Under the pieces are notes generated by a model that was not told the DNA's origin, made no database searches, and was given only the letters and a program-made list of their open reading frames with translations. 64,000 bases of DNA from Phycisphaeraceae bacterium (lineage in GTDB: Bacteria; Planctomycetota; Phycisphaerae; Phycisphaerales; Phycisphaeraceae): the NCBI GenBank assembly GCA_028277745.1, contig JANQFR010000079.1, positions 62,001 to 126,000 of the forward strand, in the 5' to 3' direction. Positions 17,172 through 59,408 of this stretch are shown piece by piece (the first letter of the stretch is position 1; each line of letters starts with the position of its first letter). Made by a program: the position numbers and the translations under genes.

Positions 17172-19511
17172 CTACGGCGTGCCTTCGTAATACGTCTGAT
17201 AAATCGGCCGGAACTCGATCGGCCCGTTAATCACATCGGGCATCGGGAGGGTCGGGTCAAGGCGGACCTGGATCACGCCCAGGCCGGTCGTCGGGACCTC
17301 GGCTTCCAGGTCGCCCTGGCTCTTGGAGAAGTAACCCAGCGTGGTGTTGAACTGCGGCGAGGTGTCGCCGAGCACCGGGCCGGTGTTGCTCTGAGGCTCG
17401 AACGTGGTGATGATCGACCCGTTGACGGTCACCTGGCCGCGCATGTCCAGCACGCCCGCCACGATCGTCCCCGACAGGTCGACCGTTTCATTGTTGTCGT
17501 GCGGGGCGATGAAGGTGCCCATCTCCACCGAGACGTGCGGCGTCAGGATCGTGCTCCGCTTGTAAAGCTGCTTTTCTTCGTCCGTGAGGTAGGCCGAGTT
17601 ATCGATCTCGAACTGCGTCCTGCCGGTAAAGGCGACTTTGTTGCGGACGTGCGCGAATTCGTTGGGCGCATCCGAAACCACCGTCCCTTCGAAGCGGCAG
17701 CCGTCAAAACGGATGTTGTTGGCGATCGTCTTGGTGTCGTAGACGTCCTGCCCGTCGATGCTCACGAAACGGTCCGGGTGTTTCTGCTCCCCGTCGGCCT
17801 CCTGCATCCCCGCGTAGTTGAAGTCGGCCTGACCCGCGATATTGGTCTCGGTCTCGACGAACGTGACGCCGATGAAGGTGCAATTCTTGAACAGCGCATT
17901 GGTGCCCTTGGGGATCCTCACGTTGGTGAAGGTCATGTTCTCGTAGACCGGGCGCGTGTAGTAATCGTAAGGATGGGCGGCGCCGAACGGGACCGATTCG
18001 GTCACCTCGTTGCCCAGCGGCTGCGGGCCGTCGGGGTCGACGCCGCCGGGGTTGGCGGCGACCTGAGGCAACGCCTGCGCATCCAGCTCGTTGTTCGGGT
18101 CCGAGACGAGGTTCCGGTAGTAGTCGACGTTGAAGTCGCTGGGGCCGAACTGATACTTGTCGACCTCGCCGGACTGGAAATTCATAGCGTTTTCGTTGAA
18201 TTCCGGCTGGATCGGGCCCTGGACATAGGACTCGTACGCGCCGCCCGCGGCGCCGGCGTTCCAGCTGGCTTCATCGGACTTGAGGTGGATCTCGCCCCGC
18301 AGCTTCGAGTAGCGGTCCAGGCTGTCGATGACGCCGTCGTTGTAGCCGTCGCGGGTCGGATCGCCGAAGGTGTCGATCAACTTCACGAGCTGCGACGCCT
18401 GGACGGCGCCGACGCCCCCCGTCTCCAGGGCGGTCGTCGTGACGCGGTACCGCCCGGTGGTGGCGTCAAGCGTTCCGAACTGGCCGAGGAAGAGGTCGAG
18501 CTCGTCGATGTAGCCGTCATTGTCGAAGTCGAAATCGTTCGCCTCGTCGTAGTCTGGCGTGGAAGGGTCGTCGAGGTTGCCGGTTTCGACGAAGTTGCCG
18601 ATCCGGAGACGGTTGTCGCCGTCGGTGTCTTGATGGTCCACCCCGGTGACGGGGTCGACCGTGCCGCCGATGATGGAGCCGAGCAACAGGTCGAGCTTCG
18701 CGTCGAGATCGGGGTGCAGCCCGCGGAAGTCGGACTCGATCTGGACCGGGTGGCCGTTGTTCAGGTTCGTCTCGGTGAACCGGGAGCCGATCGGGCCTTC
18801 GATAATGACGTTCTTGCCGATCATCACCCGGCTTTTGGAGAGGATGGCGAACCGGTTACGCTTGTCGATCTTGAAGTCCATCGACAGCGTGCGTTCGATC
18901 CGGTTGCCCGTGGGGCCGTCATACGCGGTCACGGAGACGCGGACCCAGGTCGCATCGAGCGGATTGGCGGAGCTGACGCCCATGCTCTTGTAGGGCTCGC
19001 GCTTATAGAAATCCGCGTTGTACTGAAGGTTGCCGTTGGGATGAGCCAGCGGGTGCGGCTCGAGGGTGGCCATGAACGTCGGGCCGCCCGGCGAGACCTC
19101 GATCTCGGGGATGGTCAGCTTGCCGTTGACCGTCTGAAAGGACTTGGTCTGGTACTGGAAATCGGTGGAAAGCGAATCGATCAGGCCCTGCCGCAATTGG
19201 GCCCAGAGCTGAGTCACGTCTCCATCGGGGTGCACCGACCCGGAGCTGTAGCTGGATCTGGCGGGGTCGTAGATCAGGCCGGCTTTGGTGGTGACGCCGG
19301 CGGCGACGGTGTCGACCCGGAACATGATGAAATCCATGCCGGTCTCGGCCGCGGCCATGGCGCGATTGATCTTCAGGTGTGAATCCGCCGTGGCGAGATT
19401 CCCCTGCGACACGATCGCCATCGCGGCCGCCAGCGACGAAAAAATCACCAGGAACATCATCGCCAGGATCGCGGCGGCGCCGGCGTCATGATGTCGATTC
19501 ATTCGAACCAT
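17172..19511 (-). CDS. PilX-like pilus assembly protein with calcium-loop-like repeats
   Basis: A 779-residue protein with one N-terminal membrane segment (residues 10-32, AGAAAILAMMFLVIFSSLAA) of the kind seen in PilX N-terminal domains of minor pilins; it lacks a classical GFTLIE motif. The large exterior part contains Asp-rich loops DTDGDNRLRIGNF and DFDNDGYIDELDLFLGQFG (residues 295-345) and DGYNDGVIDSLDRYSKLRGE, which resemble dockerin or EF-hand calcium loops. Later residues form a repetitive beta-rich region. The ATG at 19511 follows GAGG at a good spacing. It sits between PilV-like and PilW-like genes. Calcium binding is an inference from spacing of the Asp residues. Confidence 0.72.
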   Translation of the reverse strand: MVRMNRHHDAGAAAILAMMFLVIFSSLAAAMAIVSQGNLATADSHLKINRAMAAAETGMDFIMFRVDTVAAGVTTKAGLIYDPARSSYSSGSVHPDGDVTQLWAQLRQGLIDSLSTDFQYQTKSFQTVNGKLTIPEIEVSPGGPTFMATLEPHPLAHPNGNLQYNADFYKREPYKSMGVSSANPLDATWVRVSVTAYDGPTGNRIERTLSMDFKIDKRNRFAILSKSRVMIGKNVIIEGPIGSRFTETNLNNGHPVQIESDFRGLHPDLDAKLDLLLGSIIGGTVDPVTGVDHQDTDGDNRLRIGNFVETGNLDDPSTPDYDEANDFDFDNDGYIDELDLFLGQFGTLDATTGRYRVTTTALETGGVGAVQASQLVKLIDTFGDPTRDGYNDGVIDSLDRYSKLRGEIHLKSDEASWNAGAAGGAYESYVQGPIQPEFNENAMNFQSGEVDKYQFGPSDFNVDYYRNLVSDPNNELDAQALPQVAANPGGVDPDGPQPLGNEVTESVPFGAAHPYDYYTRPVYENMTFTNVRIPKGTNALFKNCTFIGVTFVETETNIAGQADFNYAGMQEADGEQKHPDRFVSIDGQDVYDTKTIANNIRFDGCRFEGTVVSDAPNEFAHVRNKVAFTGRTQFEIDNSAYLTDEEKQLYKRSTILTPHVSVEMGTFIAPHDNNETVDLSGTIVAGVLDMRGQVTVNGSIITTFEPQSNTGPVLGDTSPQFNTTLGYFSKSQGDLEAEVPTTGLGVIQVRLDPTLPMPDVINGPIEFRPIYQTYYEGTP

Positions 19512-30081: not shown

Positions 30082-30651
30082 ATGTCTGAAGAAACGGCGG
30101 AGATCCTGGAATGGTCGTCGATGGACGCGGCTGACGTATCACAGATCGCGGCGGTACGGGTCGTGGCGTTCGAGGTAAAGGAGGAAGACGCCGTTTCCAA
30201 CTATGCGGAGCGGCTGCATTCGATCCGTTCGGGCCACACCGGTTCCCCGGAGACCTCGACACGGTGTGCGGTGGTCCGCATCGACGGGAAGATCATCGCC
30301 ACCGCGGACAGTTTTCTGCGCCGGATCGCCACGCCCGCGGGCCCCCTTCGCGTACTGGCCCTGGCGGGGGTGGCGTGCCTGCCGCAGCACCGCGGGAACG
30401 GGTACGGACGTCGCGTGGCCCGGACGATGCTCCAGCGCGTTGACCAGCGTGCGTTTGACCTTTCTCTGTTCCAGACCGGCGTCGCCCCGTTCTACGAAAA
30501 GCTCGGCTGCCGGCTGGTGAGCAACCGCTTCGTGAATTCACTGGCCGACGACCCGGCCGCCAACCCGTGGTGGAATCCGCAGGTGATGATCTACCCGGCC
30601 GCGGCGGGCTGGCCCGACGGCACGATCGACCTGCTCGGCCCGGGTTATTAA
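30082..30651 (+). CDS. GNAT-family N-acetyltransferase
   Basis: A cytoplasmic acetyl-CoA dependent acyltransferase of about 189 residues with unknown substrate. The acetyl-CoA loop is VACLPQHRGNGYGRRVARTM (motif A, Q/RxxGxG/A form), followed by a motif B helix with FYEKLGC. The preceding strand ATADSFLRRIATPAGPLRVLALAG fits motif D. I chose the second ATG (30082) as it is just before the conserved part; the ATG at 30055 would also fit. Divergent from miaA, with only 50 bases between starts. Confidence 0.7.
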   Translation: MSEETAEILEWSSMDAADVSQIAAVRVVAFEVKEEDAVSNYAERLHSIRSGHTGSPETSTRCAVVRIDGKIIATADSFLRRIATPAGPLRVLALAGVACLPQHRGNGYGRRVARTMLQRVDQRAFDLSLFQTGVAPFYEKLGCRLVSNRFVNSLADDPAANPWWNPQVMIYPAAAGWPDGTIDLLGPGY

Positions 30652-56044: not shown

Positions 56045-56317
56045 TTATGCCTCGGCCGTTTCCGGCTTGTAGGCGTATTTACGTTTCAGGGGTTTGACCA
56101 CGAGGCCGCAGCGGATCGCCTTGGCGGAGGCCTTGACCCGTCGGACCGAGCCGTCCTCCATGACCGCGGTCACGGTGCGGATATTGGGCTTGAACGTCCG
56201 CTTGGTCTTGCCGGTCACCTTGGTGCCGACGCCGCCGAGGTATTTGGCCTTGCCGCGGAGGGTGTAGGTGTGGCCGGTGGTGGTCCGGCGGCCGGTGAAT
56301 TCGCAAACGCGTGGCAT
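56045..56317 (-). CDS. rpmB: 50S ribosomal protein L28
   Basis: A 90-residue ribosomal protein. It starts MPRVCEFTGRRTTTGHTYTL, then GKAKYLGGVGTKVTGKTKRT, with the L28 N-terminal CxxTG-type motif reduced to CEFTG, and FKPNIRTVTAVMEDGSVRRV and ASAKAIRCGLV, which fit the family. Longer readings reach into the upstream gap. The start at 56317 is the canonical one. It is the first gene of the leftward run before dnaG. Confidence 0.93.
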   Translation of the reverse strand: MPRVCEFTGRRTTTGHTYTLRGKAKYLGGVGTKVTGKTKRTFKPNIRTVTAVMEDGSVRRVKASAKAIRCGLVVKPLKRKYAYKPETAEA

Positions 56318-56517: not shown

Positions 56518-56614
56518 ATCCGAATCCAACCATCAAGGGCGTTCCTTATCCGTTGGCTGAGGCGGGATTAACGCACAGATCGGGCTTCCTGGTCATCACT
56601 CAGCACAGTACACT

Positions 56615-56685
56615 CACGTCAGTGGATCGCTGGTTGGTGTCCGCATTTGCGGGCGACCGGCAAATGAACCTAATACGTCATAGGG
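56615..56685. repeat. attC-like repeat A (partial)
   Basis: GTGGATCGCTGGTTGG, then GCGGGCGACCGGC and ACGTCATAGGGC match the 3' half of the later copies. The 5' half is missing or degenerate. Confidence 0.5.
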
Positions 56686-56687
56686 CA

Positions 56688-57131
56688 ATGCAGATACGGT
56701 CCTTCCATCCCGATGACACCGCAGCGGTCGTTCATCTCTGGCAGGCATGCCAGTTAACACGTCCGTGGAACGATCCGATCAAGGACATCCAGCGGAAACT
56801 GCAGGTTCAACCCAAGATGTTTCTCGTCGCCGTCGCCGACGGATTGATCGTGGGGTCGGTCATGGCAGGCTACGAAGGCCACCGCGGCTGGATCAACTAC
56901 CTTGCCGTTGCTCCGGACCGCCAGCGGGAGGGCATTGGCCGTTCGCTGATGGAGCACGCCGAGCGTCTCCTATTTGAGGCCGGCTGTCCTAAGATCAATC
57001 TGCAGGTTCGTGCCGCAAACGGCGCGGCCGCTGCGTTTTACCGGGCCCTCGGCTACAAGATCGACGAAGTCGTGGGTATGGGTAAACGTCTCATCTCCGA
57101 CGATCTGCCGCGAACCAAACGCTGCAGTTGA
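56688..57131 (+). CDS. GNAT acetyltransferase, YpeA-like
   Basis: A 147-residue acyltransferase. The text LWQACQLTRPWNDPIKDIQR, FLVAVADGLIVGSVMAGYEGHRG, LAVAPDRQREGIGRSLMEHA and GCPKINLQVR matches the pattern of the YpeA group of GNAT proteins, cytoplasmic acetyl-CoA enzymes with poorly known substrates. The acetyl-CoA loop is RQREGIGRSL. The start at 56688 was chosen as it begins the conserved core (MQIRSFHPDD); the ATG at 56664 is another candidate. Its stop codon lies inside repeat B, as is sometimes seen in integron cassettes. First gene of the cassette-like array. Confidence 0.85.
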   Translation: MQIRSFHPDDTAAVVHLWQACQLTRPWNDPIKDIQRKLQVQPKMFLVAVADGLIVGSVMAGYEGHRGWINYLAVAPDRQREGIGRSLMEHAERLLFEAGCPKINLQVRAANGAAAAFYRALGYKIDEVVGMGKRLISDDLPRTKRCS

Positions 57132-57217
57132 CCGACAACGCCCGTGATGGATAATCCAGTGGCCAGTTGAACGTCTGCTCCCGCGGGCGACCCGTAGCTG
57201 AGCTAATTACGTGAGGC
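57109..57217. repeat. attC-like repeat B, 109 bases
   Basis: Starts with CGCGAAC, then CTGCAGTTGACCGACAACG and GATGGATAATCCAGTGGCC, CTCCCGCGGGCGACC and ends with GTGAGGC. Same length and order as copies C and D. Confidence 0.7.
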
Positions 57218-57236
57218 ATTTTTGGAGGTCCACCGT

Positions 57237-57644
57237 ATGCTCAAACGTCGAATATTGGTTGTCTCGATGCTCGTAGTTATGTTGTGCGTGGGCTTTGCGG
57301 GCGGTTTGCTGATGAGGCTCTCGCAACCCAATGTCAAATCCGTCGATCAAGGCATTGTCACCACGCGGCTGTTGCCATGGCAGGCCAACGAAGCGGCCAA
57401 CGCGTTCATCGCGGAAAAGGGCTGGACGCTTGTCACTTCAGAATCTCATCCATTTAAGACTTACTGGATCGCAACTCGGGCGGATGGCAGCGAAATCAAG
57501 TTGGAGGTGCTTCAAGAACGCACAAATGACAATGAAGTTGTCATTTTCATCACGCCAGTGGGCGGGGATGAAGCGACGGCCATTGCTCATGACCTTGCAT
57601 CGTCTATTTCTACTCGGTTCGGCTCTCGCAATTGGCGCCTGTAA
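57237..57644 (+). CDS. Hypothetical membrane-anchored protein, 135 residues
   Basis: An N-terminal membrane segment (residues 5-24, RILVVSMLVVMLCVGFAGGL) followed by a soluble part, QANEAANAFIAEKGWTLVTS and SEIKLEVLQERTNDNEVVIF. No family is recognised. GGAGG lies 8 bases before the ATG at 57237. It is in the cassette-like array, between repeats B and C. The 125 bases after the stop hold no gene. Confidence 0.65.
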   Translation: MLKRRILVVSMLVVMLCVGFAGGLLMRLSQPNVKSVDQGIVTTRLLPWQANEAANAFIAEKGWTLVTSESHPFKTYWIATRADGSEIKLEVLQERTNDNEVVIFITPVGGDEATAIAHDLASSISTRFGSRNWRL

Positions 57645-57769
57645 GTGCGTCCCTGGCCAGCACGATGTAAGCCGGGTTGTCAAGGGTGGATGATCGTCGA
57701 CAGGCGTTAAAAGAAAGAGCAGATACGTCCGGCGTCGTCCAAAGCGAATCGTGGCTTGACATTTGAGGC

Positions 57770-57878
57770 AGCTAACCGCCAGTTGCAGTTGACCGCAGAC
57801 GCCCATCATGCATAATCCAGTAGCCGGTCGGGAGCCTGTTTCCGCGGGCGGCCGGCGGTTGAGCTTTTTGCGCCAGGC
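57770..57878. repeat. attC-like repeat C, 109 bases
   Basis: Starts AGCTAAC, one base from RYYYAAC, then TTGCAGTTGACCGCAGACGC, CATAATCCAGTAGCCGG, CCGCGGGCGGCCGGCG and ends GCCAGGC. Confidence 0.7.
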
Positions 57879-57890
57879 GATGGAGGCATG

Positions 57891-58148
57891 ATGCGATATT
57901 GGGCCGTGAGTGCGATCCTGTTAAGCGCGGCAGGCTGCGCGATGCATCCCCAATCCCCGGTGAGGGTTGACCGCAGCTACCAGATCCGGCTTACCGATTC
58001 GCCAAACGTATCGCAGGTGCGCGTCATGGAAACCACGGGCGACTGGATTCGCCTCCAATACCACGAGAACTCACCGCGTGTGGATCCTGGCCTTGATGAT
58101 GTATGGGTCAACGCCAGTCACATTGTTTGGCTTGCGCCCTATGAGTGA
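57891..58148 (+). CDS. Small lipoprotein-like protein, 85 residues
   Basis: The N-terminus MRYWAVSAILLSAAGCAMHP has a lipobox (LSAAGC) after a short hydrophobic stretch. The rest is a small beta-rich domain, VRVDRSYQIRLTDSPN, VMETTGDWIRLQYHENSP and a late VWVNASHIVWLAPYE, of unknown family. GGAGG precedes the second ATG (57891); another ATG is at 57888. Third gene of the array, ending 7 bases before repeat D. Confidence 0.7.
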   Translation: MRYWAVSAILLSAAGCAMHPQSPVRVDRSYQIRLTDSPNVSQVRVMETTGDWIRLQYHENSPRVDPGLDDVWVNASHIVWLAPYE

Positions 58149-58155
58149 AACTGAC

Positions 58156-58264
58156 GCCTGACCACTGGCTGCAGTTGACCGGCGACGCCCGCGATGGATA
58201 ATTGGGTTGTCGGTTGGAAGCCTTTTTCCGTGGGCGGCCGACAATTGAACCTGTTACGTCAGGC
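58156..58264. repeat. attC-like repeat D, 109 bases, complementary ends
   Basis: Starts GCCTGAC (58156-58162) and ends GTCAGGC (58258-58264), exact inverse complements. The inner GTTGACCGGCGACGCCCGC is partly complementary to GTGGGCGGCCGACAATTGAAC with extra unpaired bases, the folding pattern of an attC site. The usual AAC/GTT triplets appear as GAC/GTC. Confidence 0.75.
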
Positions 58265-58271
58265 GGATGAT

Positions 58272-58526
58272 ATGAAACATTCCCTCCTCGCAATTCTTCT
58301 CTTGGCTTTGGTCGGATGTGCATCATCCTCCACGGTCGTCGGTTATGGTCAAGGTGAAACGCCTGCAGAAGCGACCCTGGCAGCCTGGGAAAACGCCCGC
58401 GCCAAGATGAACGCAGGCGGCTGGAGGAACTACAAACTTGAAAAAGATCAATTGTTGATTCATCAATCGTCAGAAGCAGGCGACTCATGGAAAACGAACA
58501 TCCGTTTTCGCGTCATCGAAAGATGA
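58272..58526 (+). CDS. Small lipoprotein, 84 residues (paralogue of next gene)
   Basis: A lipoprotein with signal MKHSLLAILLLALVGC, then SSSTVVGYGQGETPAEATLA and AWENARAKMN. The GxGxGxTxxEAxxxA...ARxxxN pattern recurs in the gene at 58613, so the two are related. A small periplasmic domain of unknown function. The start at 58272 is 7 bases after repeat D. It ends 2 bases before repeat E. Confidence 0.7.
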   Translation: MKHSLLAILLLALVGCASSSTVVGYGQGETPAEATLAAWENARAKMNAGGWRNYKLEKDQLLIHQSSEAGDSWKTNIRFRVIER

Positions 58527-58528
58527 AC

Positions 58529-58606
58529 GTCTAACTACGGTCTTCAGCGGCCGGTTGGACGTTTGCTCCCGCGGGCGGCCGGCCACTGAGCCGAGAGGTG
58601 ATAGGC
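58529..58606. repeat. attC-like repeat E (shortened)
   Basis: Starts GTCTAAC, a full match to RYYYAAC, then AGCGGCCGGTTGGACG, CTCCCGCGGGCGGCCGGCC, and ends GATAGGC. It lacks about 31 bases of the 5' half. Confidence 0.65.
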
Positions 58607-58612
58607 ATCATC

Positions 58613-58915
58613 ATGCATCACAGTCCCCAACTCACAGTCGTCCTGGCGATATTAATCCTCACTGTGTTATCGGGTTGCGGCACTAAACAGATCGTCACCG
58701 GCGTTGGCGAGGGCCCTACGGAGGAAGCCGCCACGAAAGCAATGCTCAGCAACGCGCGAGAGGTCATTAATCGGCTCAATCCTACGTTTGAGCTTTACCC
58801 TCTCGGAAAGCTGCAGAAGGGCACTGTGCAGAAGCGCAACGATGCCGACCCATCCCAACCTCCTGAAACGGTTTGGCGTGTTGTGGGTAAGTTTGAGGCG
58901 AGGCCGCCACGGTGA
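58613..58915 (+). CDS. Small lipoprotein, 100 residues
   Basis: Signal LTVVLAILILTVLSGC followed by GTKQIVTGVGEGPTEEAATK and AMLSNAREVINRLN. It is related to the lipoprotein gene just upstream by the shared GxGxGxTxxEA motif and by position of the following helix. The rest includes LQKGTVQKRNDADPSQPPET. It is the last gene of the array; no further repeat follows its stop. Confidence 0.7.
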   Translation: MHHSPQLTVVLAILILTVLSGCGTKQIVTGVGEGPTEEAATKAMLSNAREVINRLNPTFELYPLGKLQKGTVQKRNDADPSQPPETVWRVVGKFEARPPR

Positions 58916-59042
58916 TGATGCCGAATCACCACAGACACCCGCCAAACTCGATACTCGATCCTTTCTGTGCCGTTGATGTCATCGATCCTGGAAAAGGTCG
59001 CCGCAGTCAAACCGGGGGCGGTGAGGTAGACTCCACGCTCCG

Positions 59043-59408
59043 ATGAACCGCTCCGCCGCCGATGCCGCCGCCTCGCCCGCTTGTGAACTGTGCCGCCGCC
59101 GCGGGCTGCGTCTGACGCGTCATCACCTGATCCCGCGTTCGCGTCACCGCAAGCCGCGCACCCGCCGGCGGTTCACCCGGGAGCAGATGAACGGCCGCAT
59201 CGCCATGGTCTGTTTCGCGTGCCACGGCATGATCCACGCCACGCTGACCGAACGACAACTCGCCGACGATTACCCCACGCTCGACGCCTTGCGCGCCCAT
59301 CCCGACCTGGCCCGCTTTTTCGCCTGGGTCGCCGATCAGCCGACCCACCGCCGCGTCACGGTCCGCCGGGCCGCGGCCTACGCGCAGGGCGGGGCGCGCC
59401 GCGGCTGA
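59043..59408 (+). CDS. HNH endonuclease-like protein
   Basis: A 121-residue protein with Cys pairs CELCRRRG and CFACHGMIHA around RHHLIPRSRHR, the zinc and HNH layout of small HNH nucleases similar to bacterial YisB-like proteins. The His-Ile-Pro region carries the catalytic His. The C-terminal half is Arg-rich. Function as a nuclease is inferred; no toxin-antitoxin or restriction partner is adjacent. The ATG at 59043 follows CTCC. It lies after the cassette-like array but has no attC-like repeat of its own. Confidence 0.7.
   Translation: MNRSAADAAASPACELCRRRGLRLTRHHLIPRSRHRKPRTRRRFTREQMNGRIAMVCFACHGMIHATLTERQLADDYPTLDALRAHPDLARFFAWVADQPTHRRVTVRRAAAYAQGGARRG

Follow-up and report, generated by a model that had tools for sequence, protein, structure and literature searches.

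A cassette array lacking a detectable integrase in a Phycisphaeraceae bacterium, with attC sites that probably carry a promoter

A cassette array between rpmB and an HNH gene

The window analysed here is a stretch of 64,000 nucleotides from a Phycisphaeraceae bacterium (contig JANQFR010000079.1, positions 62,001 to 126,000). Between rpmB (56045–56317, minus strand) and a small HNH gene at 59043 it contains five small co-oriented genes alternating with copies of a repeat, A to E, as had been described in a reading of this DNA from its letters alone (the sequence-only reading). Genes and repeats all lie on the plus strand. The repeats belong to one element. B, C and D are full copies of 109 bases each from R′′ to R′, as claimed; A is partial and E is a short form. 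The distances from R′ to the following start codon are 2, 19, 9, 7 and 6 bases, in agreement with the 2–19 bases given before.

The head of the array is formed by A, a leader site of a distinct type (56570–56687). It has only the middle arm (56629–56645) and the 3′ arm (56648–56670) of the repeat, followed by a degenerate R′, GTCATAGGGC (56677–56686), and is fused to a different upstream module with a −10-like hexamer, TACACT (56609–56614); the 5′ arm of attC is absent from this site. Cassette gene 1 (56688–57131) encodes a YpeA-like GNAT acetyltransferase of 147 aa (NCBIfam NF002959, 193 bits at a cut-off of 124). It is followed by repeat B (57109–57217), in which R′ is altered to GTGAGGC, and by gene 2 (57237–57644), encoding a small membrane-anchored protein of 135 aa that belongs to no family. 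Repeat C (57770–57878) has an R′ altered to GCCAGGC and precedes gene 3 (57888–58148), which encodes a predicted lipoprotein of 86 aa, again of no family. The end boxes of repeat D (58156–58264), GCCTGAC and GTCAGGC, were confirmed as exact complements. Gene 4 (58272–58526) encodes a predicted lipoprotein of 84 aa, and repeat E (58529–58606), which lacks the 5′ promoter arm, comprises the previously noted R′′ GTCTAAC at 58529, an arm at 58545–58566, the 3′ arm at 58570–58592 and a degenerate R′. Gene 5 (58613–58915) encodes a third predicted lipoprotein, of 100 aa. Its own site has shrunk to what may be the R′′ remnant of a last, degraded attC, GATGCCGAAT (58917–58926), a weak assignment by sequence reading; the remnant is complementary to the end of E over 6 bases (GATGCC). 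A scan of the array region against Rfam gave no relevant match. The lipoproteins encoded by genes 4 and 5 are related (tblastn, 43% over 53 aa), and the two genes look as if one cassette had been duplicated and had then diverged.

The gap between rpmB and the HNH gene is 2.7 kb here and 233 bp in G009, where dnaG, rpmB, HNH and hflX are neighbours with no array. In G005 and G021, dnaG, rpmB and hflX also lie together with no array. As judged from gene order, in comparisons that are all between genera, the array is an insertion into the dnaG–rpmB–HNH–hflX block, which is uninterrupted in these relatives.

Identity of the repeats and search for an integrase

A covariance model was built from 22 sites of other genomes only, most of them genomes with an integrase; the relatives with named records belong to the Phycisphaerae and other Planctomycetota. 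The scores obtained in the window were far above background, with 103.8 bits for D (E-value 3.6e-29), 69.0 bits for B (2e-18), 60.4 bits for C (1e-15) and 19.5 bits for E (0.005). This model found 54 sites across the source genome, among which D scored highest. A weak match outside any array (30455–30541, 18.0 bits, E-value 0.014) is probably due to chance.

In G011, a member of a related genus, about 30 such sites directly follow an intact intI that exceeds the TIGR02249 cut-off, and the repeat family also occurs beside or near intI in G003, G019 and G061. An attI with a GTT core precedes the first cassette in intI-bearing relatives. In G011, R′′ of site n matches R′ of site n−1 at 96% over the first five positions, compared with 21–68% for the site's own R′. 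Counted as matching positions, the values are 6.3 of 8 versus 3.5 in G011 and 4.4 versus 2.9 in the source genome; the match is not intact among the cassettes of the window itself. Breakage and rejoining of cassettes at G/TT is the only process expected to leave such matching, and on this ground the repeats are identified as attC. The ends conform to the attC boxes RYYYAAC (R′′) and GTTRRRY (R′): TAAC is preserved in 91% and GTTA in 90% of the relatives' sites, and each of the two in 59% of those in the source genome; in the window, near-consensus R boxes are found in D and E only. The sequence-only reading had taken the changed GTT triplet as weakening the attC identity, which is better read as decay after integrase loss. 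The sites also form the imperfect hairpin of attC, with 5′ and 3′ arms paired in 91.4% of cells and bulges (G20, A27 and 33–34) exclusively on the 5′ arm, so that extra bases occur on the L′′ arm only.

Copies are spread across many contigs, as might be expected of dispersed intergenic elements of the REP or MITE type with no tie to integrons. This explanation is refuted by the matching of R′′ to the preceding R′ in canonical G011 arrays beside intI, and the attI ahead of the first cassette and the uniform small-gene cassettes likewise speak against it; we consider it extremely improbable. Among the intervals between sites in the source genome, 50 of 51 hold a sense open reading frame of at least 45 aa, which starts a median of 14 nt from the site, and the median cassette length is 521 bp. 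The proposal of an integron-like cassette array without an integrase is thus supported: we looked for covariance scores at background level, for identical gene order in distant relatives and for genome-wide repeats unlinked to small genes, and found none of the three. Taken together, the repeats are almost certainly attC sites and the array consists of integron gene cassettes, as far as sequence can tell; these predicted sites would be recombined by IntI. The G011 array has, at its distal end (L045:18076–18143 and 18571–18635; L046:1842–1907 and 2575–2642), several attC sites in which TG-rich simple repeats take the place of the 3′ arm.

The source genome is a draft of 5.1 Mb in 99 contigs with 95.6% completeness, and contains about 60 sites, grouped into about 12 arrays that are scattered over the genome. 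No intI above the TIGR02249 cut-off was found in this draft, the best matches being XerC and XerD. Matches to the integron integrase model reached at most 77 bits each, against a cut-off of 265, and XerC and XerD scored 288 and 295 bits for their own families compared with 130 and 107 for the integron model. Of the 294 genomes sampled from the phylum, 50 carry an intI above the cut-off. A complete integron, with intI and attI adjoining the array, was not found in the draft; the window array has at least two attC sites (B, C and D clear, E weak) and no intI. With about 60 sites in the genome and no detectable intI, the window array is a CALIN, an attC cluster lacking an integrase, which has been either lost or missed in the draft. 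There is a small chance that intI was overlooked owing to the draft state. The number of contigs, the completeness and the position of one array (L025) near a contig end would fit a working integron with intI in an assembly gap, in which case the arrays would not be truly orphaned. We regard this as improbable, because about 12 arrays are situated deep within contigs and have no intI, and both the R boxes and the match of R′′ to the preceding R′ have decayed relative to intI-bearing genomes.

Several arrays end in the 5′ half of an attC (L016:4738, L016 near 6404, L018:6248–6277, L025:5559 and L025:3575), and the array that follows often begins with a 3′-half site. An integration route that splits attC in its loop was considered for these ends and rejected, as the breakpoints vary from column 30 to column 84. 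Copies of the motif were not found in viral contigs, nor copies of site D in plasmids.

A promoter-like core in the long attC type

The long attC type holds a motif that the sequence-only reading had missed, TTGACC-(14–16)-[TG]ANNAT, directed at the gene of the next cassette; hexamers and spacing are of the sigma70 type. In the window it is present in B (TTGACC, 16 nt, GATAAT; 57128–57155), C (TTGACC, 16 nt, CATAAT; 57789–57816) and D (TTGACC, 16 nt, GATAAT; 58175–58202), and A and E are without it. Three matches in the window alone are not unusual (1.3 ± 1.4 in shuffles), and the case for a promoter therefore rests on the alignment. Among 108 aligned sites, TTGAC forms the most conserved columns (97–100%), and in the loop A47, A50 and T51 are conserved at 96%, 100% and 96%, compared with 38–63% for their loop neighbours. 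A −10-like hexamer at a spacing of 14–16 nt is found in more than 100 of 119 sites, with 16 nt in 79 and 14–15 nt in 27; the hexamers include GATAAT, TAAGAT, TAGAAT, GACAAT, TATGAT and GAGAAT. Sigma70 promoters usually have 17 nt between −35 and −10, and the shorter spacing of the 27 sites counts against a promoter. The attI regions of G011, G061 and G033 contain promoters of the TTGAC[AG] type, so that the style of the motif fits this group of bacteria.

Within the Planctomycetota the long type is patchy: 10 of 372 genomes of the phylum, from five families, have it. Among the carriers, the cultured Adhaeretor mobilis HG15A2 shows clear sites, and strain ZRK34 also possesses them. A minor attC subclass (L045 at 13292 and 14927, L014 at 8876, L164 at 1501–1603) has no good −10, and its three arms have changed together, with CGAGC/GGCTCG for CCGGC/GGCCGG. 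In a distant Planctomycetota genome, one long-type attC (G223:C35:68185–68294) lies on the unexpected side of intI (70963–71907).

Conservation of TTG and A27 has another possible cause, since TTG is paired with CAA in the attC stem and A27 is extrahelical; extrahelical attC bases of the A27 type are expected to be read by IntI. The array could accordingly be an ordinary CALIN, an element that is common (PMC9024848, PMC9668308), in which no promoter exists and the conservation of TTGAC and the loop A..AT reflects the geometry of the hairpin or recognition by the integrase. This is unlikely in our view, because bases of the loop reach up to 100% conservation without being paired, because the attC sites of other Planctomycetota integrons are short (about 55–65 bp) and lack this module, and because the promoter columns stay in the absence of an integrase while R boxes, L boxes and stem decay. 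When relatives with an integrase context were compared with the integrase-less source genome, using sites detected by a motif-containing profile, excluding copies without the 5′ half and adding 15 low-scoring sites to lessen this bias, mismatches rose from 2.4% to 22.2% in the AAC/GTT boxes (9.2-fold), from 3.5% to 18.1% in the 3′ arm (5.1-fold) and from 5.5% to 19.6% in the 5′ stem, and only from 2.0% to 4.2% in the promoter core (2.1-fold). Within the source genome, the difference between promoter and R boxes was significant (p = 3e-14). Of the 57 columns that are at least 95% conserved in the relatives, T24, T25, G26, A27, C28, A50 and T51 are the best kept in the source genome, and in the high-scoring set the promoter core persists in all 21 sites with a broken AAC or GTT. 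These different rates of decay once the integrase is gone make the recombination code and the proposed promoter code separable.

The attC variant thus probably supplies a promoter and a leader to the next cassette. We estimate the probability of the combined explanation, a CALIN with an attC-borne promoter, at roughly 0.73 on the sequence evidence. We also think it fairly likely that this attC family has absorbed a promoter together with an mRNA leader, that a cassette can thereby switch on its neighbour anywhere, and that selection outlasts the integrase and keeps the orphan arrays expressed.

Leader hairpin, proposed mechanism and relation to known cassette promoters

Pairing between the middle and 3′ arms is seen in 89% of cells, compared with 27–57% in slid controls. 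Changes in the middle arm are nearly all C to T (39%, versus 4% for G to A), a bias that is highly significant by Fisher's test both on cells (1e-48) and on genome-group by column (1.4e-8); the latter is the safer figure, because related sites share ancestry. No such bias was seen in the 5′ arm (4% and 4%). Sites of the attC type recombine on the bottom strand. A C-to-T change in the middle arm keeps U–G pairs in the sense RNA and creates A–C mismatches on the bottom strand, a pattern consistent with a hairpin at the 5′ end of the cassette mRNA that would leave the bottom-strand attC fold undisturbed. The middle arm is a direct repeat of the 5′ arm, and both are complementary to the 3′ arm, as would also suit a middle arm that competes for structure within the single-stranded attC hairpin, in control of recombination, and does not act as an RNA leader. 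We give this possibility a lesser but real chance: with the changes observed, pairing is preserved on the sense strand and lost on the bottom strand. They fit RNA pairing, avoidance of bottom-strand misfolding, or both. The sites are not proposed as general Rho-independent terminators, as only about half of them have a T-run behind the stem.

From these data we propose the following mechanism. The sequence itself shows that the sites are attC, where the cassettes begin and end, that no intI is detectable, that the array is inserted relative to other genera, that the motif is conserved, that the arms pair and that decay differs between the two functions; transcription from the motif and the action of the hairpin in RNA are inferred. 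The array was inserted between rpmB and the HNH gene, at a spot that is uninterrupted in relatives, with attC sites of a lineage-restricted long type (109 bp). Each would carry a sigma70-type promoter in the apical half of the hairpin, with −35 in the 5′ arm and −10 in the loop, directed at the gene of the next cassette. The transcript would begin near the middle arm, and this arm would then pair with the 3′ arm to form a 5′ leader hairpin of the mRNA, with the start codon directly after R′. The attC of each cassette would in this way drive the neighbouring gene or, in a cassette that exists as a free circle, the gene of that cassette, and expression would not depend on how far away Pc, the integron promoter, lies. 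Once the integrase had been lost, recombination features would decay and the promoters would be kept by selection for expression.

According to the standard view, integron cassettes are promoterless and depend on one promoter, Pc, at the head of the array, with only those near Pc being expressed. If attC itself carries a promoter, cassette expression would become independent of position and every inserted cassette would receive a ready start signal. One DNA segment would then hold two codes, one for a recombination hairpin on the bottom strand and one for a promoter and RNA leader on the top strand, and the retention of orphan arrays scattered through the genome would be explained. How distal and orphan cassettes are expressed is a long-standing question, which becomes testable now that the two codes can be told apart by their rates of decay.

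CALINs and attC sites in Planctomycetota are already known (PMC9024848, PMC8352920, PMC9668308), as are single promoter-bearing cassettes, promoter cassettes and, in Vibrio sp. DAT722, one promoter bridging an attC (PMC8876359, PMC11014356, PMC2945992). Being a CALIN, the array is a known kind of element, here carrying a new attC variant. It shares with CALINs as defined by IntegronFinder at least two attC sites, small cassette genes, no adjoining intI and attC decay, and differs from them in its long attC with an embedded promoter-like core, in the differently built leader site at the array head and in the number of such arrays, about 12 in this one genome (PMC9024848). In cassettes 20/21 of Vibrio sp. 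DAT722, a sigma70-type promoter with its −35 in attC likewise drives the next cassette, but its −10 lies in the following cassette and it is unique in its array (PMC2945992); here attC contains both −35 and −10, and almost all sites of the family, across several genera, conserve them. The gene-less cassette promoters of Vibrionaceae and Treponema integrons (PMC11014356, PMC6557892) and the promoters of cmlA, qac and qnrVC cassettes (PMC8876359) also provide Pc-independent expression; they are tied to particular cassettes, whereas the promoter described here is tied to a type of recombination site. The attC sites of the phylum are known and conserved enough to be modelled, as in the Planctomycetes covariance model, the main text of which mentions neither a promoter nor a third arm (PMC8352920). 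In the open-access literature we came across no description of a conserved promoter in an attC family, which is not proof of novelty.

Finally, six A-type sites were found in the source genome and none in 50 other genomes of the family. Each combines a TACACT-bearing module with the same middle–3′ hairpin and R′, and four of the six, including that of the window, are array heads. They look like replacement promoters at places where no upstream attC exists. An assignment as attI was rejected, as the attI of intI-bearing relatives looks different and A-type sites occur in this genome only. The upstream homology of two A-type sites in L018 derives in part from an unrelated terminator-like repeat. 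This repeat, around GAGCGCCGGAGCCCCGCATGCGCATGCGGGGCTGAGG, occurs at L018:6366–6440 and at about 60 other places on many contigs of the source genome, where it is not linked to attC.
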